The position numbers and the translations under genes are program-made. A stretch of 32,784 bases of DNA from Candidatus Aenigmatarchaeota archaeon (GTDB lineage Archaea; Aenigmatarchaeota; Aenigmatarchaeia; GW2011-AR5), in the NCBI GenBank assembly GCA_018304585.1, contig JAGVVY010000005.1, positions 1 through 32,784 of the forward strand, given 5' to 3'. Below, in pieces: positions 8,590-32,174 of this stretch (position 1 is its first letter; every line of letters begins with the position of its first letter). Below the pieces are notes generated by a model, which saw only the letters and a list, made by a program, of their open reading frames with translations, made no database searches and was not told the DNA's origin.

Positions 8590-10059
8590 TTATCCAAAAA
8601 AAACGTTTAGCTCCTCAACGTCTATGATAAATATATTATCATATTTTTTAATAAGAGGTTTAAACTTGTTTATAATAACAGGAATAATAGAGTAATCAGT
8701 TATATCACCTTGTATTCCTAGTTTTGACTTAAACCAAGAAAATCTGTCTTTAAACGTTTCAACTCTTTCTATATGACGTAAAATTCTCCCGTACAATCCT
8801 TCATCAGTATCGGGATATATTTCTTGACGAAGAAATGTAGTACCAGTTATAGAAGATGGTGCAAAATCTCTATATTTTGCCTCACCTATAATTATTTGTT
8901 TCAATTTCTCTGAAACCCCTATAATGTCGTAGCCCAAGTCGTTTTCTGCTTTTAGCTCTTTGGGATAAACTGAATACCCATTTTCAGATACTTTATTTCT
9001 ACATTCTTCTTCAAAAGTGTCCGAAGCCCACTGCTTGGCTTGACCTATAATTTCGCTTCCACTCAATGGTTGGCTTGGGGCTCTTTTAGTGTCTATGGAA
9101 AATAAATATAACAAATAAAACATAATCGTGTGTTTATCCACTAAAAAATAATCTTTATATTTAAATGTCAGGGGAGATGAAGTTGTGCTATATTTCTGAA
9201 CAAATCCACTGAAATCTGGCGTAACCCCTGAATACTTACAAGTATTTTCATAATGGTTTTTTATCCCACGTGAATTCCATGTTGTATCATTTTTAACAGA
9301 ACGGTATAACCCCAACAGAGCTGCCAAATCTATTGGAGTTGGGTCGTATTTGTAATTCAGTGATGTTCTGTAATGCTGCTTAAGAATATATGATATTCCA
9401 ATTATAAGTCTAAAATTCTGTTGAAAAAACTTACTAAATTCCATTCCAATTCTAGGAGTTATGCGAATTATTTTTTGCTCATCAATTTTCTGATATTTGA
9501 ATAAACCTTCACCTATATTCGCAGATGCGAATCCATAATTTTTATACATATCTAAGATAACATCCCAGTACTTTAAGGCTAAGGTATATTTCCCATCACT
9601 ACTTATTACGAATCGTTTATTTTGTATGTCTTCCAGCATATTTGCGGTTTTGAAATGATCATTGTAGCTACGAATAAAATCATCTAATTTCTCTTTAGTT
9701 TTCAATCTGCCTACAGGGGGCGAATTGCTTAAGTATAATAATATTTCATCGCACAGTAAGACTTCTTCCATATTTGCTCTCCCAGAAAAAGCCTTTTTTA
9801 TCAAATCTGCCCGTTTCCTATATACATATTCAGCAAGAGCTAGAAAGTCATATTGTTTGCTCTGTAGTTTTAGCGCAATTTCTTTTCTTCTAAGGTCTTC
9901 CTTAAAACGGCTATCGTCTGTGGCTATTGAAAATGGTGCACATAATACACACTGAGTATTAATACAGTATTCAAGCTTAGTTTTTACGTCAATGTATTTT
10001 AGCTGTTTACAACTATTGCATAGGTAATCTGACTCTATTAGCTGTTCGTTTATAGGCAT
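8590..10059 (-). CDS. Putative restriction-endonuclease-like protein (N-terminal Cys-rich motif + C-terminal PD-(D/E)XK-like domain)
   Basis: CNSCKQL...CINTQCVLC; LGYDIIGVSEKLKQIIIGEAKYRDF (D...ExK). AT-rich relative to neighbours. Confidence 0.55.
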   Translation of the reverse strand: MPINEQLIESDYLCNSCKQLKYIDVKTKLEYCINTQCVLCAPFSIATDDSRFKEDLRRKEIALKLQSKQYDFLALAEYVYRKRADLIKKAFSGRANMEEVLLCDEILLYLSNSPPVGRLKTKEKLDDFIRSYNDHFKTANMLEDIQNKRFVISSDGKYTLALKYWDVILDMYKNYGFASANIGEGLFKYQKIDEQKIIRITPRIGMEFSKFFQQNFRLIIGISYILKQHYRTSLNYKYDPTPIDLAALLGLYRSVKNDTTWNSRGIKNHYENTCKYSGVTPDFSGFVQKYSTTSSPLTFKYKDYFLVDKHTIMFYLLYLFSIDTKRAPSQPLSGSEIIGQAKQWASDTFEEECRNKVSENGYSVYPKELKAENDLGYDIIGVSEKLKQIIIGEAKYRDFAPSSITGTTFLRQEIYPDTDEGLYGRILRHIERVETFKDRFSWFKSKLGIQGDITDYSIIPVIINKFKPLIKKYDNIFIIDVEELNVFFG

Positions 10060-12967: not shown

Positions 12968-15900
12968 TCAGAGCTCCTTCTTCCTGAGCAACTTCGCGCC
13001 CACGCCAAGAACCACGGCAAGCATGAAGCCGCCCGCGATGAAAGCGGACACGCTGTCATGCCCCTCAACCACTACCCTTGCAACGTCCTCGTCAAGTACC
13101 CTGCCGTCCGGCGACTCCATGACCGCCCTGAAGTCGTACGTGCCCGGCGAACTCAATTGCAATTGCGTCGTATACAACGTCTTTCCGCCCATGCTCTTGG
13201 AGAGGAGCTCCTCCTTGCCGTCTTTCGTGACCGTAAACTTTGTCACGGACTCGTTCTCGAACGACCTCACGGTTATGGTGCCCGGACTGCCCTCTGAAAG
13301 GAGCGATGCGTTCAGCAAAATTGTGAGGGGCCTGAAATCGATGCCCACGCGCTTTGAGGATTCGCTGTCGCCGACCTTGGCATACACAAGGAACTCGCCG
13401 GACAGCGTCTCAGGCACGGTCATCATGAATGTGAGCCTCTCTTCCGACCCGCCAGGCACCGAAACATCCCTTGTCCATGCCCCAAACGACTGCTCCGCGG
13501 CTTCGTGCGACTCGTGCTGCACCGAGCCTGCAATAAACACGGCTTCCGCAAACACTTTGACGGTTATTGCTTCGGCAGGCTTGAGCACTAATGTCACGTT
13601 GAATTCCTCGGCATTCTCCACGCTCGCTGGCGCCAATATTTCCATACCGATTCCTCCCGCAGTCACGGTCTTCGTTGATACGGCAGCGTTGACCACGGCT
13701 TGCGGGTTCTCGTCCACTGTCTCGTTCTTCACCACGATCGACACCCTGCCTCCGCCGGAAGCCGCGCCTCCTCCTGCAGCTTGGGCGCCGGTTTGCTGGG
13801 CAGATGGTTGGGCCGCGGCGGCTACGGTCGTACTGGTCGTCGTGGCCGTTCCGTCGCTCGATCCCTCAAGGAAGAATTGCTTCGTGGACAGGGAGAAGCC
13901 CGAGAACGTGACGCTGTGGTTGGCGTTGTCAACCTGGAGATTGTAAGCCTGCGTGACGTCCGCCATTCCCGCGCCCTCGTACAGCCGCCACGCCGTGTAA
14001 GTGAACTGAGGGCTGAAGTCTATAGTCGCCGTGACGTTGGAGAACGAGTTCTCGGACGAAATGTTGAACTCCTTCTGGTACAGCGTCGATCCGAACAGCG
14101 AAGTCCTCCCGACCAAGATCGCCGGCGCTGGCACGTCGACGAGCAGCCACGCCTGTCTTGCGGCGTCGCCGCTCCATGTGACGTTGTTTGCGTCCAGCGG
14201 GTCAACGGACACGCCCCTTGTCGTGCCCGACTCGTTGACGCGGATGTTGCTCGCATTAATCAGCGCCGGCCTGCGCACGGAGAACGCCTGCGCCGCGCCT
14301 GAATAAATTATCGGGTAGCTGTAAATCACATCCGCGCCCCCGGCGACGACAGGCGTTATTTTCTGCGGCGACGACAGGAGCGCCAGGGATCTCGCCGGCA
14401 GCGTTGTCGTAGTCGTTGTAGTGGTGGATGGGAAGGATTGAACCGATGACATATTCTCCGGCCCGATCTCCACTATCCTGCTGTAGGACGCCTGTACATA
14501 GGGCACGGTTTCTGCTGCAGTCGGCGTCTGGGTGTAGCCGTCGTATGCCTTGGCGTAAAAGTATGTATATCTCCGGCCGCTGCTGGAAATGTCCAGAGCC
14601 GTCTCGAAAGGAGCGGCCGTGTCCGTGACTATCAACTTTTCATCGTTCCATAATTCCACCTTCGTGACGCCGTTGTCGTCCACTGCGTCTGCCCTGAGCC
14701 TGACTGTGCCGCCATCCACGTCAACTTTCAGCGAGACTGCCGGAGGCATGTCCACTGAACGGGAGAATGTATATGCCTGCGTACCGGAACCTCCACTCTG
14801 TGTAATTGTCTTCAGCGTCATGGCGATCTGTAGGGGAAGGGAACCCATAGGCGTGATCAACGCATCAACGAAAGAAGAGTAAAACGTAGATCCTCCAGTC
14901 AAATTGCCTGGAATCTGCGCCTGCGTCGCAGGATTGGTCTGGTCCTTCCGGAAGACGACAAAGTCCTGCGGCAGACCGCCCGGTCCCTGATAACCGAATA
15001 CTCTGAAGAACGTGTTTGCATTCTGGTTCCATCCGAAATCCAGAGACGGGGATCCCGCGAACGACACGTTTATGAACTCCATATAATTTGCATTGCAACT
15101 CTGGTCGTTCGTGACGGCTATGGTCTGCTTCGTGAGGTCGCATCTGCTTGTATCATGCGCCTGCGAGACGTCGATATCGTTATTTGAAAATATGCCGCGT
15201 ATGATCCTTGCCGGCCAATCCGGCGACGGGGGCTGCACATAAGAAACTATATTGATTCCTGTCTGGTTGTCTGTAAACCACGCAGGCTTGCTGCCCCCTA
15301 TGTATTCATTATCCTGATGATGCGTGCGTATTGACCACACGAGAACCTGCTGCTGGGCATTCTCCGCAAACCGGGAATTGTAAAGCTTGATCGGATTTAC
15401 ATATGATGACCACCAGAATCCTGTCATGCCGTTCCTCCATGAATGAAACTCCAGAAAATCCCTGACCCCGCAATTGCCGCACCATGTGAGGAACCCGGCT
15501 GCCCTGTTGCTATGCGCCTCGTTCCCATAGAGTATGAAATAATCCGGTTTGCCGGATACCTCGACATCCGAGCCTTCATCCGCCTGGAACCCTCCGTTTC
15601 TCAAGGTCTCCGGCCCGGATGTCGCATGCGCCCCCACGGCCACGTTCCCTATGAGAGTCTGGTAAATTCTCTGATCAAGCCAGAATATTGCTTCGTCGCT
15701 CGGCGCTCCTCCAAGGCTATTGAAGGCGCTTACGGGCATTGACATGACGCCAAGATTATGGACCAGGACGTTGTCCTGAGGGGGCGGCGTATTGACGCAT
15801 CTCGGTGTGATGGCATTTTGCGGGCACGTCAACTCCATGAAATAGGGGCTGGCGACCGTATTGAACGCAACATTGTCTTCCACAAGTATGCCGTCCGAGT

Positions 15901-16933
15901 CGTGAATTACGTAAGCCCGGGAGCCGCTGTACCACACGGAGTTGCCGCGGATTATGCTTCCCAGCGACGAATTATGCATCTGATGGAAGTGCACGGGGTA
16001 TCTTCCCAGAACGCGATCATGCCCCATGTACTTGAATTCGGCGTACTCGACGTTCCCTGCAGAACCCGACATATACATGGTGTGCGCAAACCTTCTGCCG
16101 TCCCTTGCGGACTGGGATGCCGATTCCAATGCGCCTTCATTCGTTCCAAGTATATCCGTGGTTATGAGAACGTTTCTTGTGAGCAGCCCTGCCTCCCCGC
16201 GCTCCTTCCCTGACCCCTTATGGGCAAACGAGAGCCCGGAATCAAGCGTCAGCCTTGTTCCCTCAGGCACCTTCTCCACCGCCGTTATCCTTCTAACTTC
16301 ATTTTCGTTTTTGAAAGTCTCGGAATCCTCCTGGAGCGGGTTGCTCGTCTGCGTTATTACCATATAGCCGTTCACCGGCCAGTCAGTCAGATTATTCTCC
16401 ATTGTAATGCTCGCCGATCCCGCCGCTTCGTCGGCCGCAAGCTTGCTCCACGTCCTGACAAGAGGGGCGCCGTGCACTTCCCATATGCCCGACGGCATGA
16501 CGAAAAGCCCCGTGTCCGCAGGCGCAAGATGCGGATTGCCAAACTGGTCGGTTCCTGTGAACGTTTTCCCGTTGGGGAGCACAAATATGAGCTCGACTTT
16601 CACGTTATTGGGTATGTAGTCCGATTCCGTTCCCATATCAAGGAATCCGCCCCCGTGCACTATGATGCTGTCATTGGTTTTCAGCCGCGTGGATACGGAA
16701 CGCGAGAATTTGAGCGTGCCGTATATATCAACGCCGTCAACCACCGCATCCGACTGCCCGTCATAGGCGACTATGTGCCCGGCCGTAATCGTCACCCTGT
16801 CCCCTGCCTTCGGCACGCCCGCGTCCCATGTCGCGGCGCTGGACCACGCGCCGGTTTGGACGCTTGAGATGGACGCGGCAAACGAAAACGCGGGGGAAAA
16901 TAATACAAGCAACGCTATAAGCGCAAATTTCAT
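12968..16933 (-). CDS. Large secreted, C-terminally membrane-anchored surface protein with G8-like domain and parallel beta-helix-like region
   Basis: Signal peptide; SSVQTGAWSSAATWDAGVPKAGDRVTITAGHIVAYDG (G8-like); Thr/Ala/Gly-rich linkers; C-terminal TM AFIAGGFMLAVVLGVGAKLLRKKEL. Confidence 0.82.
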   Translation of the reverse strand: MKFALIALLVLFSPAFSFAASISSVQTGAWSSAATWDAGVPKAGDRVTITAGHIVAYDGQSDAVVDGVDIYGTLKFSRSVSTRLKTNDSIIVHGGGFLDMGTESDYIPNNVKVELIFVLPNGKTFTGTDQFGNPHLAPADTGLFVMPSGIWEVHGAPLVRTWSKLAADEAAGSASITMENNLTDWPVNGYMVITQTSNPLQEDSETFKNENEVRRITAVEKVPEGTRLTLDSGLSFAHKGSGKERGEAGLLTRNVLITTDILGTNEGALESASQSARDGRRFAHTMYMSGSAGNVEYAEFKYMGHDRVLGRYPVHFHQMHNSSLGSIIRGNSVWYSGSRAYVIHDSDGILVEDNVAFNTVASPYFMELTCPQNAITPRCVNTPPPQDNVLVHNLGVMSMPVSAFNSLGGAPSDEAIFWLDQRIYQTLIGNVAVGAHATSGPETLRNGGFQADEGSDVEVSGKPDYFILYGNEAHSNRAAGFLTWCGNCGVRDFLEFHSWRNGMTGFWWSSYVNPIKLYNSRFAENAQQQVLVWSIRTHHQDNEYIGGSKPAWFTDNQTGINIVSYVQPPSPDWPARIIRGIFSNNDIDVSQAHDTSRCDLTKQTIAVTNDQSCNANYMEFINVSFAGSPSLDFGWNQNANTFFRVFGYQGPGGLPQDFVVFRKDQTNPATQAQIPGNLTGGSTFYSSFVDALITPMGSLPLQIAMTLKTITQSGGSGTQAYTFSRSVDMPPAVSLKVDVDGGTVRLRADAVDDNGVTKVELWNDEKLIVTDTAAPFETALDISSSGRRYTYFYAKAYDGYTQTPTAAETVPYVQASYSRIVEIGPENMSSVQSFPSTTTTTTTTLPARSLALLSSPQKITPVVAGGADVIYSYPIIYSGAAQAFSVRRPALINASNIRVNESGTTRGVSVDPLDANNVTWSGDAARQAWLLVDVPAPAILVGRTSLFGSTLYQKEFNISSENSFSNVTATIDFSPQFTYTAWRLYEGAGMADVTQAYNLQVDNANHSVTFSGFSLSTKQFFLEGSSDGTATTTSTTVAAAAQPSAQQTGAQAAGGGAASGGGRVSIVVKNETVDENPQAVVNAAVSTKTVTAGGIGMEILAPASVENAEEFNVTLVLKPAEAITVKVFAEAVFIAGSVQHESHEAAEQSFGAWTRDVSVPGGSEERLTFMMTVPETLSGEFLVYAKVGDSESSKRVGIDFRPLTILLNASLLSEGSPGTITVRSFENESVTKFTVTKDGKEELLSKSMGGKTLYTTQLQLSSPGTYDFRAVMESPDGRVLDEDVARVVVEGHDSVSAFIAGGFMLAVVLGVGAKLLRKKEL

Positions 16934-17259
16934 TATTATATCTGGTTCTCCCGACAATAAATAATGTGATTAGATATTTTAGGGGCAAAATACCGATTAT
17001 GCCACCGGTAGGGAGTAGACGTCTTGTTTTCCGTTGAACATGAATTCCGTTTCTTTGGCATAAAAAAGCTATCAGATGCACGCCATTAACCTTTAGTCAT
17101 ATCAATATCGCGCCATCCGGCACTGCGAAGAGCGTTAAAGATACGGCGACAAAATAAGGTTTAATAGCTTCGTAGAAAACCTACACTAAAGTTCCATTAC
17201 TATTGCAATTTACTATAAGACTTGCGCGCCCGCAAACCGCATTGCCGTGCATCAGGGAT

Positions 17260-22345: not shown

Positions 22346-23335
22346 CTATTTCTTCCTCTCCACAAGATAATCCGCGAAGCTATTCAGTATTTCACGCAGT
22401 GCCGCAGGCATATCTTCAGTTATTTTCTTCGCCTTTGTTATAAGAGTTTTCGCCTTCTCCCTTGCGTATTCCATGGAGCCGTATTTCTCCATCAGCACTT
22501 TTGCCCACAACACGTCGCGGTCGGTCGTCTTTTCCGGCTCCTTTCCCAGCACTGCAAGGAGCTTTGCCTTTTCCTCGCCCGTGCATCTGGAAAGGCAGTG
22601 AACGACCATCATGCTTCTTTTTCCTTCTTTGATGTCCCTGCCTATTTCCCCGCGGCCCTTGCCCTCGCTCATGTCCAAGACGTCGTCCGCTATCTGAAAA
22701 GCAGGACCGGCATATTCGCCGTATTTAAGTATTTTTTCTATCAATTTCTGGTCAGCTCCTGTCGCTATGGCGCCGCCCACTGCCGGGACCGTAAGATAAT
22801 GCGCGGTCTTGCCGGTCACAGTCTTCATGTATTCCTCTTCTGTCGGCTCCGCGCTTTGCCGCATATTCATGTCCATCGCCTGGCCTTCGGCTGTTTTGAC
22901 AGCCGTGGTGACTATGGCCTCTATCAGGCGGAAAACCGTCTTCTCGTCCATGCCCCGGTTTCGGCACCTTAAAATAAGCTCGTATGTTTTCTGCGACATA
23001 TAATCCCCGATGTTTATCGCGTGCGGCACCCCGTATCTGACCCAAACCGTAGGCTTGTCCCGACGCATCCGGTCCCCGTCCTCAATGTCGTCGTGCACAA
23101 GAAGCCATGCGTGCAGAACCTCGCACGCCGCCGCGAATGGCAGTATTTTATCGCCCTTGCCTCCGAGAGCTTCATAGGTTGCTATTGCCAGAACAGGGCG
23201 TATGCGCTTGCCGCCGGTCCCTATATGATACCAGACCGCTTCCTGAAGATTGGCTATGCCATTCTTGGGGAAAACTGCATCAAGCTCCTTGTCAATAAGG
23301 CCTGCCTTCTCGGCCATTGCGGTTTCTATGCTCAT
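22346..23335 (-). CDS. idsA: Polyprenyl (geranylgeranyl/farnesyl) diphosphate synthase
   Basis: GGKRIRPVLA; first Asp-rich HDDIED; second FQIADDVLD. Confidence 0.92.
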   Translation of the reverse strand: MSIETAMAEKAGLIDKELDAVFPKNGIANLQEAVWYHIGTGGKRIRPVLAIATYEALGGKGDKILPFAAACEVLHAWLLVHDDIEDGDRMRRDKPTVWVRYGVPHAINIGDYMSQKTYELILRCRNRGMDEKTVFRLIEAIVTTAVKTAEGQAMDMNMRQSAEPTEEEYMKTVTGKTAHYLTVPAVGGAIATGADQKLIEKILKYGEYAGPAFQIADDVLDMSEGKGRGEIGRDIKEGKRSMMVVHCLSRCTGEEKAKLLAVLGKEPEKTTDRDVLWAKVLMEKYGSMEYAREKAKTLITKAKKITEDMPAALREILNSFADYLVERKK

Positions 23336-23402
23336 GCTCTCTATATTCTTTGGGAATTTTTATAAATGCCTTAACTTACTGCTTAATAGTTCGTTGACTC
23401 GA

Positions 23403-23936
23403 TCATATCATTCTTATCAATTTCGGGCTTATTCCCAGCCTGTTTCTCAGGCTCCTTACCGAACTCATAAGCGCATTTGCCATCATCTTCTTGATTTTCC
23501 CGTCCCATGGGTCGAAGAATGTTGACGTTTGCTTGTCCATTTTGAGCAGAAGAATAAAGTGCGAATAATGATATATGCCGTCAAGGTCATATTTGTCCAT
23601 ATAAACGGCAATAGGCGCCTTTGCAGCCAGCCTCATGACGAGCCTCTTGCTGTTTTTTGCCGGCAAAAGCTTGATGCTCTTTGGTATGTCAAGACGTAAA
23701 AGTTCGTCATTGAAAGAAGGAAAATCAGTATACTGCTCTATGCCGACTCCATATTTCTTCGCAACGTAAATAAGCTGCCCTATAGTATAGTCAAGCTTGG
23801 TGAAAGTCAGCCCTTCCATGAGTATCTTCGTTTCTTCCGAATCCTTCACCCTCACCCCTCTCATACGCAAGAGTTCCATGAGGCATACCGGCAGGCATGA
23901 TTCGCAGGTGGATTGAGCTTTCATACAGTTCATCAT
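23403..23936 (-). CDS. C39-like cysteine peptidase domain protein
   Basis: QSTCESCLPVCLMELLRMRG (Cys region), YHYSHFILL (His), FFDPWDGK (Asp). Confidence 0.6.
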   Translation of the reverse strand: MMNCMKAQSTCESCLPVCLMELLRMRGVRVKDSEETKILMEGLTFTKLDYTIGQLIYVAKKYGVGIEQYTDFPSFNDELLRLDIPKSIKLLPAKNSKRLVMRLAAKAPIAVYMDKYDLDGIYHYSHFILLLKMDKQTSTFFDPWDGKIKKMMANALMSSVRSLRNRLGISPKLIRMI

Positions 23937-23972
23937 AACTAATTATAGGTATTATTTTAACTATTAAAACTT

Positions 23973-24917
23973 TTATTGAATAAGTATATTACTATTATAA
24001 TATGAGGGTAATTCATGAAAATTAAATGAAGGTATCACTCGCCGATGATCTTGACTATGAATTCTTTGCCACAGTTTTTGTGTGAACTTTTCAGAGTGCC
24101 CTAACTCATGGCTCAAAGCTTCAGAAGAATACTTTTTATCATAAGCTAAGAATAACGCTAAATCAAGAACTCTATATACATCTCCGGGTGTAAAATCTGT
24201 AGGAATTTCTGCAAAATACGATGACACTTTATCGGTTGCAAAAGTAGAATTTATTGGTCTCCTTTGTATAAAAGGATCTGGGATAGCAAGTGCTTCGGCA
24301 AGATCGTATACCTGAGTTTTATAAAAATCTGATAGTATCGCTGCTTCGCCACCAGCTCCAATCACTATTTCTCCCAAAACAACCTCGGTTTTATTTGTAG
24401 AGTCTATGGCACAATGTCCAGTTTTATCAGCATACTCTAAAACTAACAGATCCATAAGACGTGTAGCCAATTCTCCGGGGTATATTTTTTTACGATGCGT
24501 TAAATTTAGCAAATAATCTGTTATTTCATTTATATGGTTTAATAACGGAATAATATCTTGTTCTATATATTGTATTTTTAATCTTGGATATTTAGATCTT
24601 ATATATTCAATAAATAATCTAGAATAATTTGTATCTTCTTTACTCCGTCCTCTAAAATTAATTAAACCCAAATTGGTATCACGAATATGTCCACTTTCAA
24701 CAGCATTCTGCATGGTTTCAGCTACAACAGAACTACAAACGCAAGAATCTATACCCCCGGATAATCCTATGACCGCTCCAAGCGAATTTTCATCATATGT
24801 AACAGTTTTTATTGCATTTTCTGTAAAATTATAAATATCAGGAAGCATAGACCTAGCCATATCAATATTTGATAAATATTGAGCAGACCAATTCACATCT
24901 TCTATTTTATCGGTCAT
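23973..24917 (-). CDS. NAD synthase-like N-type ATP pyrophosphatase (divergent NadE paralog or amide ligase)
   Basis: SGGIDSCVCSSVV P-loop; STNKTEVVLGEIVIGAGGEAAILSDFYKTQVYDLAEAL. Start overlaps stop of the upstream small ORF. Confidence 0.75.
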   Translation of the reverse strand: MTDKIEDVNWSAQYLSNIDMARSMLPDIYNFTENAIKTVTYDENSLGAVIGLSGGIDSCVCSSVVAETMQNAVESGHIRDTNLGLINFRGRSKEDTNYSRLFIEYIRSKYPRLKIQYIEQDIIPLLNHINEITDYLLNLTHRKKIYPGELATRLMDLLVLEYADKTGHCAIDSTNKTEVVLGEIVIGAGGEAAILSDFYKTQVYDLAEALAIPDPFIQRRPINSTFATDKVSSYFAEIPTDFTPGDVYRVLDLALFLAYDKKYSSEALSHELGHSEKFTQKLWQRIHSQDHRRVIPSFNFHELPSYYNSNILIQ

Positions 24918-25128
24918 TCGGTATAGTTTTCTTGCTTCTCTTTCTAGCGACCTCATCATTAACACCAATATTTAAAATTTCTTCAAACGCGGAGTTTACA
25001 GCAGACGTTTTAGAGCTTTTCGATAAGAATTTATTCAAATAACTAGGGAGTTTGCAACTTGCGCCTTTTGAATCGAATAGAGTTATTTTCGCTCTTTTGA
25101 TTTTCAAATTTCTACACCTCGATATCAA
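24907..25128 (-). CDS. Small peptide (~65-73 aa), putative peptide substrate/carrier
   Basis: Overlaps the ATP-grasp stop upstream and the NadE-like start downstream; LKIKRAKITLFDSKGASCKLPSYLNKFLSKSSKTSAVNSAFEEILNIGVNDEVARKRSKKTIPNDR. Confidence 0.55.
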   Translation of the reverse strand: MISRCRNLKIKRAKITLFDSKGASCKLPSYLNKFLSKSSKTSAVNSAFEEILNIGVNDEVARKRSKKTIPNDR

Positions 25129-26170
25129 TAATTTTCACATTATCGAATTTTCCTGTCCTGAGTTTATTCATCGGATAAGTAATTTCATTCGCTAATCTTG
25201 TGAACATAAGATTATTCTTATAGAAAGATTTGCCATTAATTTTATTTTCATATAAAATATCAACTAATATTTTTGGTAGATTTTGACCCGCTGCGGTGGC
25301 CAAATAAATCCAAGAAGGGAATCTTGGGTTTATTTCAAATAAATAATATTTTTTAGTGACATGATCTCTGACAAATTCTAATTCAAAAGGTCCTATCCAA
25401 TTGATGCATTCAATTATATGATCGGCTATATTTTTTATTCGATTATTTGTGATCGTGAGACCACTCCAAGTAGTACCCTTAGAATCGATGGCCAATTTTT
25501 TCATGATTGTATATCTTTTTATTTTACTTTTGTAATCCGCGACACCTGAAATACAATAGTACTCTCCGAATAAAAATTCTTGTAATATTACGCTTCCTTC
25601 TCCACCGCTCCATATATCTCTTATTTTCGAGAAGAAAATAAGCACTTCCGAAGAATCTTTTGCAATATAAGCATCTTTGAGTATACCTTTACAAACCAAC
25701 GGTAATCCCAAAGTTTTTATTGCAATATCGATTTCGTTTTCTTTAGAAATTAAAAGTGTTTTTGGAATTAAGATGCCGTATTTCCTCAGTTCTGCTAAAT
25801 AAGGTTTTGAAGCTTGTCTAATAGAATACGAAGAAGGCAACAATAATTTTATTCCTATATTTTCTATTTCTTTTTTATATTTAGCAAAGAAAAAAACATC
25901 CTTATCATAACATGGTATCAATATGTCAATTCCTTCTTTATCTTTTATTTTCATTAAGATTTTTTTAAATTCATTAAAATTTTCTGTTTTCAATGAATTA
26001 GTAATATAGACCGCGTCAAAATATGACGCAATTATTGCAGATGTTAAATAACTATCGTCAATGCCTATAACTTTATATCCAGCATACTTTAAAGATCTGG
26101 CCACGGCAAACCCAGGTTGGGGGCTTTCAACGGTTTTTAATGCAGTGACTGCGACTGAAATGGGTTTCAT
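25112..26170 (-). CDS. ATP-grasp ligase (carbamoyl-phosphate synthase/PylC-like)
   Basis: PreATP-grasp N-terminus; ILIPKTLL, GLPLVCKG, GPFELEFVRD..KYYLFEINPRFPSW. Confidence 0.82.
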   Translation of the reverse strand: MKPISVAVTALKTVESPQPGFAVARSLKYAGYKVIGIDDSYLTSAIIASYFDAVYITNSLKTENFNEFKKILMKIKDKEGIDILIPCYDKDVFFFAKYKKEIENIGIKLLLPSSYSIRQASKPYLAELRKYGILIPKTLLISKENEIDIAIKTLGLPLVCKGILKDAYIAKDSSEVLIFFSKIRDIWSGGEGSVILQEFLFGEYYCISGVADYKSKIKRYTIMKKLAIDSKGTTWSGLTITNNRIKNIADHIIECINWIGPFELEFVRDHVTKKYYLFEINPRFPSWIYLATAAGQNLPKILVDILYENKINGKSFYKNNLMFTRLANEITYPMNKLRTGKFDNVKIIDIEV

Positions 26171-27399
26171 TTTAATAACTCCCAGTTATCTAACGAGATC
26201 ACGTCCTCCGGATTTTCTTTTCGTCTAATTAAATCGATGCCTGATTTTTCTATGGCCACAACAGCAGGCCGTGTTCTGATAAATTGAATAGAATGAGATA
26301 ACTCATATGCGCCACAGGTGCCTATTTTCAAGATATTACCGACCGTGGCTTTTGGAAGATATATGCCAGAATCTATTAGATCGACTTGCATGCATAGGGG
26401 GCCATATATGTCAGTAATTATGGGTTTCTCTTTTGAGTCGCTTATAAGTTCTATGGAGTGTTTTCGATAATACGAAGATGGGATTATATTTACGCCTGCA
26501 TCAATAAATATAGAATGCACATCAAAGATGTTTTTTATCGCTGTTATCGTAGTAAGAAGGCACATTGCATCATCTATTATTGCCCTTCCTGGTTCTATTA
26601 TCAGGACGATTTCTTTCGACTTTCCCAATTTATCTATTATAATATTGCAGATAGCATGAGCATAATCTTTGATACAAGGAAATTTTGTTTTGCTTTGGTA
26701 TCCCAATGTCTCAAGACCATTCATTTCTGTACAAAACCCGCCGCCTATATCTAAGTATTTCAAATCTATTTTATCGACATTCTTCAGGTAAAAATCTACT
26801 ATATGATTCGTAGCCTTTGAATAAAGGGCAACATCCGTTATATTCGTTCCTATATGCGTATGTAAACCTATTATTTTTATGTTATTTAATTTAGAGATGA
26901 AATCAACTATTTGCTGTGCTTCGCCATTTTCTAAATTAAATCCAAACTTATTCCAAATTATTTTACTGCCCACATTAATATTAACTCGCAATCCTATTTC
27001 GATAGTAATATTAAATTTATTTGCGATTCCTATGATATCTCTAAGTTCAAAAATATTATCAACATTTATTTTGCATCCATATTGAATGATGCTGATTAAC
27101 TCACATTCTGGTTTATATGGCCCATTGACAATTATTTTTTCTCCAGGGACTTTAATTTTTTTTGCAATTTCAAATTCAAATCCCGGTATTACTTCAGCAT
27201 ATGCACCGACCTTGTGGAGACTGTGACATATAAACGGAAGATAATTTGTTTTGTAAGAATATGCGACAATAGTTGGAAACAACTTATTAAATTCCGTGTT
27301 TATTTTCTCAAAATTAGAAACTAATTTTTCTTTATCTAGAACAAATAACGGAGAACCGTATTTTCTTATAAGGCCTTTATCTAATGATTTTTTTCTCAT
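26167..27399 (-). CDS. Fold-type III PLP-dependent decarboxylase (DAP/ornithine decarboxylase family)
   Basis: YSYKTNYLPFICHSL (PLP Lys), GLHTHIGTNI, YLDIGGGFC, IIEPGRAI, YGPLCMQVDLI. Confidence 0.9.
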   Translation of the reverse strand: MRKKSLDKGLIRKYGSPLFVLDKEKLVSNFEKINTEFNKLFPTIVAYSYKTNYLPFICHSLHKVGAYAEVIPGFEFEIAKKIKVPGEKIIVNGPYKPECELISIIQYGCKINVDNIFELRDIIGIANKFNITIEIGLRVNINVGSKIIWNKFGFNLENGEAQQIVDFISKLNNIKIIGLHTHIGTNITDVALYSKATNHIVDFYLKNVDKIDLKYLDIGGGFCTEMNGLETLGYQSKTKFPCIKDYAHAICNIIIDKLGKSKEIVLIIEPGRAIIDDAMCLLTTITAIKNIFDVHSIFIDAGVNIIPSSYYRKHSIELISDSKEKPIITDIYGPLCMQVDLIDSGIYLPKATVGNILKIGTCGAYELSHSIQFIRTRPAVVAIEKSGIDLIRRKENPEDVISLDNWELLK

Positions 27400-27609: not shown

Positions 27610-28434
27610 ATGAAATTTCCCACAATAGGGGAAAATTCCACTAAGGATAAAATAATCTCGGTACTTAGTACTGAAAAATTTATTTCCATGCGAAAATTAT
27701 ATAGTATACTTAAAGCTAGGTATTCGCTTTCTATAACATATCACGCGATTTACAAGACGATAAATGAAATGGTTAAAAATAAAATAATAGAAAAACATAA
27801 TAAATTTTATAACATTAGCCATAATTGGATAATCGAAACAAAAAACTTCATAGAAAAAATAGAAAGAGATGAAACATCTGGAATTCCTCCGGCAGAAAAA
27901 CTTTTCATGGGGGAATTAAATACTGTGACTTTCAATAGCCAGTTTGATTTTTTCAATTATATGATAGATTTTTTTACTTTATTTGCTCACAATGGCGACA
28001 GGAAATTCTATGGATGTTTTTATCATTTATACTGGGCACTATCTTTCGAGGGAGAGAAGTTTGTAAAATTTAAAAAGATGATAAATAGCTTTAAAGTGGG
28101 CTATTTATTGTGTAATGGGTCGTCACAAGCGGACAAAATAATTTCAGATTACTATATGAGCTTTAATCCAACTGCAAATATAAAACTTGGAGTAAATTGC
28201 ACCGAAACCTGTGAAATCTTTGTGTGTGGAAATTATATAGCTCAAGTATTTCTTGAAAATAAGTTTAGACGAAAATTAGACAAAGTCTATACAAACATAG
28301 ACTTTGAAAATCAGAAGGCCATGAGAAAGTTGATGGAAACACTTTTTTTCACTAAAACAAAAATAACACTTATAGTCACTAAAAATAAAACTTTAGCATC
28401 TGAAATAAAGAAAGGTGTTCTGGAATATTTCTAG
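27610..28434 (+). CDS. Winged-HTH domain putative regulator
   Basis: N-terminal wHTH-like MRKLYSILKARYSLSITYHAIYKTINEMVKNKIIEKHNKFYNIS; divergent from the PLP/ATP-grasp operon. Confidence 0.6.
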   Translation: MKFPTIGENSTKDKIISVLSTEKFISMRKLYSILKARYSLSITYHAIYKTINEMVKNKIIEKHNKFYNISHNWIIETKNFIEKIERDETSGIPPAEKLFMGELNTVTFNSQFDFFNYMIDFFTLFAHNGDRKFYGCFYHLYWALSFEGEKFVKFKKMINSFKVGYLLCNGSSQADKIISDYYMSFNPTANIKLGVNCTETCEIFVCGNYIAQVFLENKFRRKLDKVYTNIDFENQKAMRKLMETLFFTKTKITLIVTKNKTLASEIKKGVLEYF

Positions 28435-29590: not shown

Positions 29591-30385
29591 ATGAATCTAA
29601 TAAAATCGTGGATAGAACTATCTTTGCTATTGTCCCTTATACCATATGCAGCATTGTTCTTTATAAGGAGACTTCGCAAATATGTAGCAAAAAACTATAA
29701 CCTTATTATGATTGATATGGATGGTACGTTTATAAAAACGCATACATTTCAGAAAGCTCTAGAAATGGCTTATGCAAACCAAGGGGATAATATCTATAAT
29801 GAACTTATATATAGAAGCAAGCAAACAAGAGCGTATACGCAGGATAATATTAGAATGCTCAAAGGACTTGAAGCACTGGTTAATGCAAAGTTTACAAAAA
29901 ATATGGAAATGAAAGTTGCCAAGATTTCTGAACTATATTTAAATTATGACCTTTTGAAAAGTCTAAAAAAAATTAAGGGCAAAGAAATTATAATAACTAC
30001 GAAAAGTTCTGATCTTATAGCCAAGTATCTTTCAAAAAAATACGGGCTTTCAGGCGGTTATGGCTCTATTATGAAATATGGACGTAAAGGCAAGATTGTG
30101 GGTGCTGAAAGACTTATCACAGATAAGGAACATAAATTCAATAAACTTTTCGTTACAAAACTATCATTGGCCAAATTTCATATGACTAAAAAAGACAAGC
30201 GGTTTGACCCGAAAAAAACTGTTATTATAAGCAATGATATCCTTGATATTGAAACAATGAAAAATGTGGGATTAAGCATAATAGTAAAGGAAAACTCCTA
30301 TGACTTAATCGGCAGACTTTCATACAATTTAAAACTATTTGATATTATGATAGACAATAAATACACACAGATCGAAAATATCTAA
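29591..30385 (+). CDS. HAD-superfamily hydrolase-like protein with N-terminal hydrophobic segment
   Basis: IMIDMDGTFIKTH (DxDGT), IITTKSSDLIAKYLSKKYGL, TVIISNDILDIETMKNVGLSI. Confidence 0.7.
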   Translation: MNLIKSWIELSLLLSLIPYAALFFIRRLRKYVAKNYNLIMIDMDGTFIKTHTFQKALEMAYANQGDNIYNELIYRSKQTRAYTQDNIRMLKGLEALVNAKFTKNMEMKVAKISELYLNYDLLKSLKKIKGKEIIITTKSSDLIAKYLSKKYGLSGGYGSIMKYGRKGKIVGAERLITDKEHKFNKLFVTKLSLAKFHMTKKDKRFDPKKTVIISNDILDIETMKNVGLSIIVKENSYDLIGRLSYNLKLFDIMIDNKYTQIENI

Positions 30386-30898
30386 TTACTTCTTAGGTGA
30401 AACCACAAACTCGCATATATCGCCTCCTGTGGCGACGCATTTTATTTCGGTACTGTCAAGATCTGTCTTTACTATGTAACTCATGCCACCAGCGACAAGA
30501 CCGTTAAAAAGCGTATCTATAGGTTTATTAGTCTTACCAAAATGCTTGGCAACTGTAGAATTTTTCAGAATAAATATGAATGTTTTTTTATCCATGTCGG
30601 CCTTTTTTAAGACAGGCACACCCCATCCTGAAAAAGAAACCAAATCTACACCCCATTTTATTGCCTCCATTTGCCTCATTCCGGGAAATTTTTCGGACAT
30701 TATTTGAAACCATTCATATCCCGCCTTTTTGCAACTGTCATATATAAGTTTTTCATTTTTACTTTCTGTTATGACCTTTAGAATATCTATATAAGTGTCT
30801 AATGGCGTAAAACTGTCTCTGTGTCCCATTAACTCTATGCGACCACTATCCACTTTTATTTGCTTGTTCAGAAGCATTTCTGCCAGCATTTTAAACAT
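30386..30898 (-). CDS. V4R-like domain protein 2
   Basis: C-terminal IKCVATGGDICEFVVSP signature; start overlaps upstream stop (TGATG). Confidence 0.65.
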   Translation of the reverse strand: MFKMLAEMLLNKQIKVDSGRIELMGHRDSFTPLDTYIDILKVITESKNEKLIYDSCKKAGYEWFQIMSEKFPGMRQMEAIKWGVDLVSFSGWGVPVLKKADMDKKTFIFILKNSTVAKHFGKTNKPIDTLFNGLVAGGMSYIVKTDLDSTEIKCVATGGDICEFVVSPKK

Positions 30899-31407
30899 CA
30901 AACTATATCCTCCTTGATAATAAAATAGCAGTTCTTGTTTCCCTGTGACATACACTTAATTTCTTTACATACTACCGCCTTGCCGTTTACTAACTCCAGT
31001 AATCCTGCAAGAAATCCGCTCATTTGATAATCTACTGGCGTTTTGTTCTTTCCCCATAAGTCTGCAGTAAGTGAATAAGAAAGTGAAAATTCCGTGTTTT
31101 TTTCACTCTGCTTTTCCATTTTTATCTCCCCAAGCCCTAGCAAATTTAATATCTTTAGTGAAAGCTCGAGTATTTCATATCGTGACTTTTTTCCCATATT
31201 TTTAGTCAGGTTTGCAAACCAACGCAAAGATGACATTTTACTGGACTCATAAATTATTTGCTCTTTTTTCATATTCTTTAATTCTTTAAGTAAAAGAACA
31301 TATACATGAGGAGGTATCAGACACAAACTAGTACCCAACAATTTTATTTCTCCTTCTTTCATTTCAAGCTTTTTTAGATTCAGTAACTTGTTGAACAATT
31401 CTAACAT
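30898..31407 (-). CDS. V4R-like domain protein 1
   Basis: C-terminal IKCMSQGNKNCYFIIKED; paralog of the adjacent gene. Confidence 0.62.
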   Translation of the reverse strand: MLELFNKLLNLKKLEMKEGEIKLLGTSLCLIPPHVYVLLLKELKNMKKEQIIYESSKMSSLRWFANLTKNMGKKSRYEILELSLKILNLLGLGEIKMEKQSEKNTEFSLSYSLTADLWGKNKTPVDYQMSGFLAGLLELVNGKAVVCKEIKCMSQGNKNCYFIIKEDIV

Positions 31408-31436
31408 TCTTATCCCTGAAAATCCTTAACAATTAA

Positions 31437-32174
31437 TTAAATTGTCCGTTCCTTCTCAATACTCAATCCGCTTTTTCCTATCTTGAGTATGAAAGAATCC
31501 TTGCTATGATCCGTCCTACGCATCTTTCTGATAAGCAGGCTTCTTGTCGATACATCGCCTACACCCAGATAATTCAGAACTATAACCCCGTCAACCACGA
31601 ACTCCTCCACGCCAAAGCGCGAAAGCCCCTTTGAGTCTTCCAGTATTTCAGCGGTCATCAGTATAACTGCGTCTGTTTCTTTCAGTGCCTTGATAAGCTG
31701 GTAGAGACGCTTCCTCAGCTCATGCTCGTTCTCGAAGACCATGCCAAAGATCGATGTGGAGTCAAAAACTACGCGCTTTGCCCCGAATTTCTTTACAGAC
31801 TCCTTGACAACTGTGGTTATGTCGGTTATCTCAAACGGATCCTCGTACTTGATTATGAAGTCGCCCTTATCTATGTATTTCTTGAAGTCCCATCCGAATA
31901 TTTCGCCGTCGTGGAGGACGTCCTGCGGCAGTTCCTCAAGCGAAAAGAATATGCCTTTCTCGCCTTTCTGCAATCCGTCCCACAGGAATTGCGAGCAGAA
32001 AAGCGTTTTTCCCGTGCCCGTCGTTCCTGTGATCAGGTATACGTCTTTTTCAAGGAATCCGCCTTCCATCAGCTTGTCCAGCCCCGGTATGCCCGAAGTG
32101 CGCCTTGGGTGCAGGTCTGCGGCCGGCTTGGCCGCATCAGGCATTGCAGAATGCAAAGGCTTCTTTTCTTTCAT
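31437..32174 (-). CDS. KaiC-like RecA-superfamily ATPase, single domain
   Basis: TSGIPGLDKLMEGGFLEKDVYLITGTTGTGKT; FFSLEE; KRVVFDSTS. Confidence 0.9.
   Translation of the reverse strand: MKEKKPLHSAMPDAAKPAADLHPRRTSGIPGLDKLMEGGFLEKDVYLITGTTGTGKTLFCSQFLWDGLQKGEKGIFFSLEELPQDVLHDGEIFGWDFKKYIDKGDFIIKYEDPFEITDITTVVKESVKKFGAKRVVFDSTSIFGMVFENEHELRKRLYQLIKALKETDAVILMTAEILEDSKGLSRFGVEEFVVDGVIVLNYLGVGDVSTRSLLIRKMRRTDHSKDSFILKIGKSGLSIEKERTI

Follow-up and report, generated by a model that had tools for sequence, protein, structure and literature searches.

A candidate amide-forming operon with a NadE-like enzyme and a papain-fold protein in an Aenigmatarchaeota genome

The DNA analysed here is a stretch of 32,784 nucleotides (nt), hereafter the window, from a Candidatus Aenigmatarchaeota archaeon; it is contig 21 of an 825-kb genome that is 82.5% complete. 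On its minus strand lies an operon encoding, in this order, a pyridoxal-phosphate (PLP) decarboxylase, an ATP-grasp ligase, a 66-amino-acid (aa) open reading frame (ORF), a NadE-like protein and a C39-like protein. We propose, at about even odds (probability roughly 0.5), that this is a small biosynthetic operon, independent of non-ribosomal peptide synthetases (NRPS), which makes an amide-containing metabolite. The evidence comes from the gene set itself, from a split between the NadE-like subfamily and canonical NadE, from conserved active-site residues, and from linkage of the genes that recurs in other genomes. The small ORF aside, the genes are real. They are the following:

26167..27399, minus strand: PLP decarboxylase of the LysA/FigC type, resembling conjugated amino-acid decarboxylases; first gene of the operon; PF02784/PF00278, with FigC as nearest solved relative
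25112..26170, minus strand: PylC/CarB-like ATP-grasp ligase; family matches and subfamily motif E[IV]NPRFP[AS]WI
24907..25107, minus strand: 66-aa small ORF, a doubtful gene with a TTG start (reading from 25128 gives 73 aa); open frame with borderline coding signal
23973..24959, minus strand: NadE-like N-type ATP pyrophosphatase, assigned to a distinct subfamily by PF02540 and motif comparison; probable start ATG 24959
23403..23936, minus strand: C39-like papain-fold protein; weak PF03412 match, with conserved Q8, C14, H126 and D142

All five ORFs that the initial annotation placed on the minus strand are present, with the 4-nt overlap of the decarboxylase and ATP-grasp genes (26170/26167) and the 36-bp gap ahead of the C39-like gene, and profile matches confirm the four families that it named, the C39 match lying below the Pfam cut-off. 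The four upstream genes have a GC content of about 0.30-0.34, against about 0.5 in the left flank. Taking this AT-richness as proof of recent transfer into the window was dropped, since G002, a genome of the same genus, also has AT-rich GGR and V4R genes next to this site. No further small ORF was found in the operon and no Rfam RNA in the window, and a search against a defence-system library gave no match.

The enzymes of the operon

The NadE-like protein is the only match in its genome to NAD_synthase (PF02540, E = 8.9e-18). Like NH3-dependent NAD+ synthetase (NadE; structure 2E18, E = 3e-10) it has the fold of this family and its ATP motif: SGGxDS is kept in the window protein (as SGGIDS) and in its Daviesbacteria homologue (L080), the region being absent from the truncated homologue L077, and YKTQV is kept in an alignment with NadE proteins of the same phylum. 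Unlike NadE, it carries an insert ahead of the C-terminal part, and in all three subfamily members (from the window, G065 and Daviesbacteria) the NadE motifs RxRM, GYFTKxGDxxxD and PxAxLW are replaced by GELxxR, LGExVIG and PINST. A further subfamily motif, GHCAIDSTNxTE, stands with PINST in place of GYFTKxGDxxxD and PxAxLW, and its GHC holds the one cysteine common to the three proteins. The lost motifs bind the NadE substrate. Judged by these motifs, the three proteins form a distinct subfamily separate from canonical NadE, and a role as NAD synthase is unlikely. Two genomes of the same genus (70% and 93% complete) have no NadE match, which makes it seem that this lineage can do without NadE. 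At locus L003, a canonical NadE (1291-2142) adjoins an NMN (nicotinamide mononucleotide)-adenylyltransferase-like gene (792-1289); some genomes of the order thus carry the NAD pathway, the window's genus seemingly not.

The decarboxylase matches PF02784 at 1.5e-29, and PF00278 as well. Its nearest solved structure is the N-citrylornithine decarboxylase FigC (7KH2, E = 2.4e-59), followed by diaminopimelate (DAP) decarboxylases at 1e-50 and, more distantly, by BtrK (E = 1.5e-18). It has the FigC motif GPxCMQxD (GPLCMQVD, compared with GPSCMQHD in FigC), and the arginine of the DAP decarboxylase motif RPxxY and the CExxD motif are replaced, by IIPSSYY and CMQVD. FigC, SbnH, AcsE, MccE and BtrK share a clade with the DAP decarboxylases; the substrates of these five are conjugates, with citryl-, carrier- or peptide-bound groups (PMC7857480). 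By sequence and by its CMQxD motif the window enzyme is closest to conjugate decarboxylases of the FigC/BtrK/SbnH type, and its predicted substrate is an amino acid in acylated or carrier-bound form. Relatives 48-55% identical occur in the genomes G150, G048 and G065. The one on contig 58 of G048 (L055, 3122-4072; 49%) runs at the contig end into what by eye looks like the start of an insertion-sequence gene.

The ATP-grasp protein matches PylC-like_N (1.1e-5), ATPgrasp_Ter (9e-6) and the NCBIfam PRK12767 group (1.9e-20). Other ATP-grasp matches in the phylum are 19-34% identical to it, and the NPRFPxW motif was not seen at their loci.

The C39-like protein reaches Peptidase_C39 with E = 8.5e-4 and 19.6 bits, under the Pfam cut-off of 22, and all nine aligned family members match PF03412 weakly. 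The papain-type site Q8, C14, H126 and D142 is invariant in 5/5 members, the Cys region being absent from the L091 reading used in one alignment. Searched against PDB sequences, the C39 profile found papain-fold toxins of contact-dependent inhibition (CDI) systems and the BtrH_N protein 9quz (E = 0.0036), at E of about 0.003-0.004. Foldseek with a low-confidence model built from three sequences (predicted local distance difference test, pLDDT, 57) gave CtaG entries at a probability of up to 0.84 and staphopain at 0.77, among unrelated matches and none at E <= 0.001. These comparisons support a papain fold, with a resemblance to BtrH/CtaG transacylases about equal to that to peptidases. A protease releasing the product, which the initial annotation thought possible, is one option only. 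Downstream, TTTATAAA at 23359-23366 on the minus strand, some 24 nt ahead of position 23335, where the polyprenyl synthetase gene starts, may be an archaeal promoter that divides this gene from the C39-like one.

The small ORF runs from TTG 25107 to 24907, with GAGGTG upstream of the TTG, within the end of the ATP-grasp gene. The LYR and following DVNWSA that the window NadE-like protein shares with its Daviesbacteria homologue place its probable start at ATG 24959 rather than 24917; the two ORFs previously described as meeting at 24917/24907 are there, but their overlap is about 50 nt, not 11. An open run of this length is reached by 1.25% of shuffles, and the codon score is equalled by 11% of wrong-frame stretches. 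A single-sequence model has low confidence (pLDDT 63). The ORF has no Pfam family, carrier-protein families included, and no GG site, and no counterpart was seen upstream of the NadE-like gene in Daviesbacteria. Among 156 genomes of the phylum the best match, at E = 0.0057 and covering 38 aa, is not convincing as a homologue. The ORF may be a gene, but a doubtful one, and too doubtful to carry a mechanism; the idea that its peptide is the substrate or carrier is not borne out.

Recurrence in other genomes

A C39-like gene lies directly downstream of the NadE-like gene, on the same strand, in 3/3 genomes that hold the NadE-like subfamily. One of them, G065, is of the same class as the window genome and is recorded as Candidatus Micrarchaeota. 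Its contig C8 starts within a NadE-like gene (L077, and L081 from the same contig stretch) that is 49% identical over 211 aa, followed 71 bp downstream by the C39-like gene, and contig C23 ends within a decarboxylase that shares about 55% identity with the window enzyme and that frame changes interrupt close to the end of the contig. The two stretches match in orientation and are AT-rich, at GC 0.25-0.30 within contigs of about 0.41-0.51. Read most simply, they would be a single AT-rich operon broken by an assembly gap, which may hide an ATP-grasp gene between the decarboxylase and the NadE-like gene. The other is a Candidatus Daviesbacteria genome (G156; JACPZA010000026.1), in which 3 bp separate the NadE-like gene (L080, 45%) from the C39-like gene (47%), and neither ATP-grasp nor decarboxylase lies beside them.

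The ATP-grasp and decarboxylase are also linked elsewhere. A Streptomyces plasmid (NZ_CP108525.1) encodes a 758-aa protein in which an ATP-grasp domain of the same subfamily (29% identity, NPRFPxWI motif) is followed by a decarboxylase domain; no NadE-like gene lies beside it, and the next gene encodes an unannotated 195-aa protein that looks transglutaminase-like by eye and has no Pfam match. NadE-like and C39-like, alone in Daviesbacteria, are thus one module, and ATP-grasp and decarboxylase, fused in Streptomyces, are the other. The co-location in relatives that the initial annotation asked for is seen in part: the NadE-like/C39-like pair recurs in all three genomes and the decarboxylase in one of them, G065, but the complete five-gene set is found only in the window. 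The gene set probably is no chance neighbourhood, with linkage that looks better than chance in a small number of genomes.

An alignment-based scan with the NadE-like protein found L080 and L081. Scans with the single ATP-grasp or NadE-like protein against the genome and viral contig collections, and alignment-based scans of viral contigs, found nothing. The plasmid scan gave no match with the window NadE-like protein and only distant NAD synthases with L080, a scan of phages for C39 gave none, and a profile search of 374 genomes of the Daviesbacteria's class returned no further subfamily member at E <= 1e-30. Solo C39-like relatives occur in five further genomes of that class (one weak), 0/5 with a NadE-like gene alongside. 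The NadE-like subfamily is rare in the searched material and the C39-like family is broader.

Proposed pathway and competing explanations

We suggest that the ATP-grasp enzyme would ligate a carboxylate and an amino acid, the latter probably of the diamino kind, and that the FigC/BtrK-type decarboxylase would strip the amino-acid carboxylate off the conjugate, leaving an amine. The NadE-like enzyme would then adenylate a carboxylate and make an amide from it, the nucleophile being either ammonia or the amine just formed, and the C39/BtrH/CtaG-like cysteine enzyme would move or release the acyl group. We infer the substrates, the product and the sequence of reactions, and likewise that the last enzyme transfers an acyl group instead of cutting a peptide; that the pathway forms an amide is, as a general reading, safer than any one product.

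Several observations weigh against this proposal. No transporter and no carrier protein is among the operon's genes, the resemblance of the C39-like protein to BtrH/CtaG is weak in sequence and its model poor, and no ATP-grasp was found in G065 at E <= 1e-3. The window C39 gene has a GC of 0.44 and a GC at third codon positions (GC3) of 0.56, which is host-like, against GC3 of 0.19-0.34 for the other operon genes. G002 has a C39 copy 76% identical to the window's and none of the other operon genes: the order kaiC, V4R, (UbiA-like), GGR, C39, ids is kept, with the four genes absent between GGR and C39. G005 holds a more distant solo C39 copy. Upstream of the operon, a 274-aa protein (27610-28434) and a HAD-like hydrolase (29591-30385) are encoded on the opposite, plus strand; in G002 their place is taken by a UbiA-like gene and a small HTH-like ORF, so the region is variable between relatives. 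We had taken the C39 gene for a mere resident flanking gene from the G002 synteny, a view revised in light of the same NadE-like/C39 adjacency in G065 and Daviesbacteria. In an unrooted tree of nine sequences, the NadE-linked C39s and the G002 C39 split from the solo C39s with support 96. That grouping would be accounted for if G002 had lost the four genes, but such a loss does not explain why the window C39 differs in composition from the other operon genes.

Two unrelated modules might simply adjoin in a variable AT-rich region, the ATP-grasp/decarboxylase pair serving one metabolite and the NadE-like/C39-like pair having another function. The Daviesbacteria genome has no decarboxylase homologue, so the two modules can be separate, and both the Streptomyces fusion, with no NadE-like gene alongside, and the differing GGR-to-C39 region of G002 fit such an account; against it, G065 holds members of both the decarboxylase and the NadE-like subfamily, oriented as expected on either side of its contig gap, and the genes in the window are closely spaced, with a 4-nt overlap. 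We regard it as rather unlikely. Less probable still is a carrier-bound (thiotemplated) pathway resembling those of closthioamide or butirosin, in which the growing chain sits on the small-ORF product, or on some other carrier, and the C39-like protein acts as transacylase. Closthioamide assembly uses the ATP-grasp CtaD, the carriers CtaE/CtaH, the peptidyl transferase CtaG, which the C39-like protein weakly matches, and the AANH-family CtaC (PMC6772006), and BtrK decarboxylates carrier-bound glutamate (PMC7857480). However, the small ORF resembles no carrier family and has no homologue, the operon has a single ATP-grasp and no phosphopantetheinyl transferase was found in it, and one shared cysteine in the NadE-like subfamily leaves no Fe-S site like that of CtaC.

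A RiPP-like system (ribosomally synthesised and post-translationally modified peptide), with the small ORF as a precursor that the ATP-grasp and NadE-like enzymes would modify and the C39-like peptidase would cleave, is suggested by the gene order and the papain fold. We hold it to be very improbable: besides the features of the small ORF given above (unconserved, overlapping the NadE-like start, without a GG site or Daviesbacteria counterpart), the C39-like protein has no ABC transporter fused to it, and none of the genes close by encodes a transporter. Ordinary metabolism, with a DAP decarboxylase of lysine biosynthesis and the cell's NAD synthase, seems least probable of all. Such an NAD synthase would have undone the initial annotation's proposal, and the NadE-like protein is indeed the sole PF02540 match of this incomplete genome; TIGR01048 (lysA) is likewise the best NCBIfam match of the decarboxylase, at 237.7 bits, though under the cut-off of 297.9. 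But the NadE-like score for TIGR00552 is 57.9, under the cut-off of 63.65, its canonical motifs are replaced, same-genus genomes have no NadE-like match at all, a canonical NadE in L003 is the one beside an NMN-adenylyltransferase-like gene, and the DAP decarboxylase arginine is missing.

DPANN archaea and bacteria of the Candidate Phyla Radiation (CPR) have reduced genomes, and to our knowledge few specialised metabolites have been described from either. If both hold a recurrent set of genes for amide formation, apparently moved horizontally, this would point to one or more dedicated small molecules made by them. As a tentative extension of the amide-forming proposal, with the odds against it, the two groups may have in common a previously undescribed pathway that combines a repurposed NAD-synthase-fold enzyme, a papain-fold transacylase, an ATP-grasp ligase and a conjugate decarboxylase into a new amide metabolite for interaction with the host cell. 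The gene set also sets apart a NadE-like subfamily whose members annotation pipelines would probably call NAD synthase, so that the genomes concerned would be credited in error with making NAD.

Neighbouring genes and known systems

Elsewhere in the window, two V4R-domain genes adjoin a KaiC-like ATPase (30386-32174, minus strand), an order that G002 keeps with one V4R gene. A 1329-aa protein (12968-16957, minus strand) with G8, CEMIP beta-helix and bacterial Ig domains looks unusual for so small an archaeal genome, and a 489-aa ORF with no Pfam match (8590-10059, minus strand) lies in a second AT-rich patch (GC 0.33).

NadE and AANH enzymes are linked at the superfamily level, and BtrJ of the butirosin pathway is an ATP-grasp enzyme. 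The operon resembles the butirosin side-chain pathway in its ATP-grasp, its LysA-type decarboxylase (BtrK; PMC7857480) and its papain-like protein (the acyltransferase BtrH; PMC10318531), but has no demonstrated carrier like BtrI, no oxygenase and no cyclotransferase, and its NadE-like enzyme is extra. In the rhizoferrin route (FigC/FslC) and with SbnH/AcsE, as proposed here, a ligase acts first and an alanine-racemase-fold decarboxylase then acts on the conjugate (PMC7857480); the window ligase is, however, an ATP-grasp rather than an NRPS-independent siderophore (NIS) synthetase, there is no major facilitator superfamily (MFS) exporter, and the NadE-like and C39-like genes are additional. 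The closthioamide cluster likewise combines an ATP-grasp, a papain-like transferase and a PP-loop enzyme of the ATP-pyrophosphatase type (PMC6772006), but the window has a NadE-like rather than a TtcA-like Fe-S enzyme, and its decarboxylase has another role; lacking a carrier and an Fe-S AANH, it falls outside that family. By analogy, the choice of enzymes would work like the assembly of rhizoferrin, butirosin or closthioamide.

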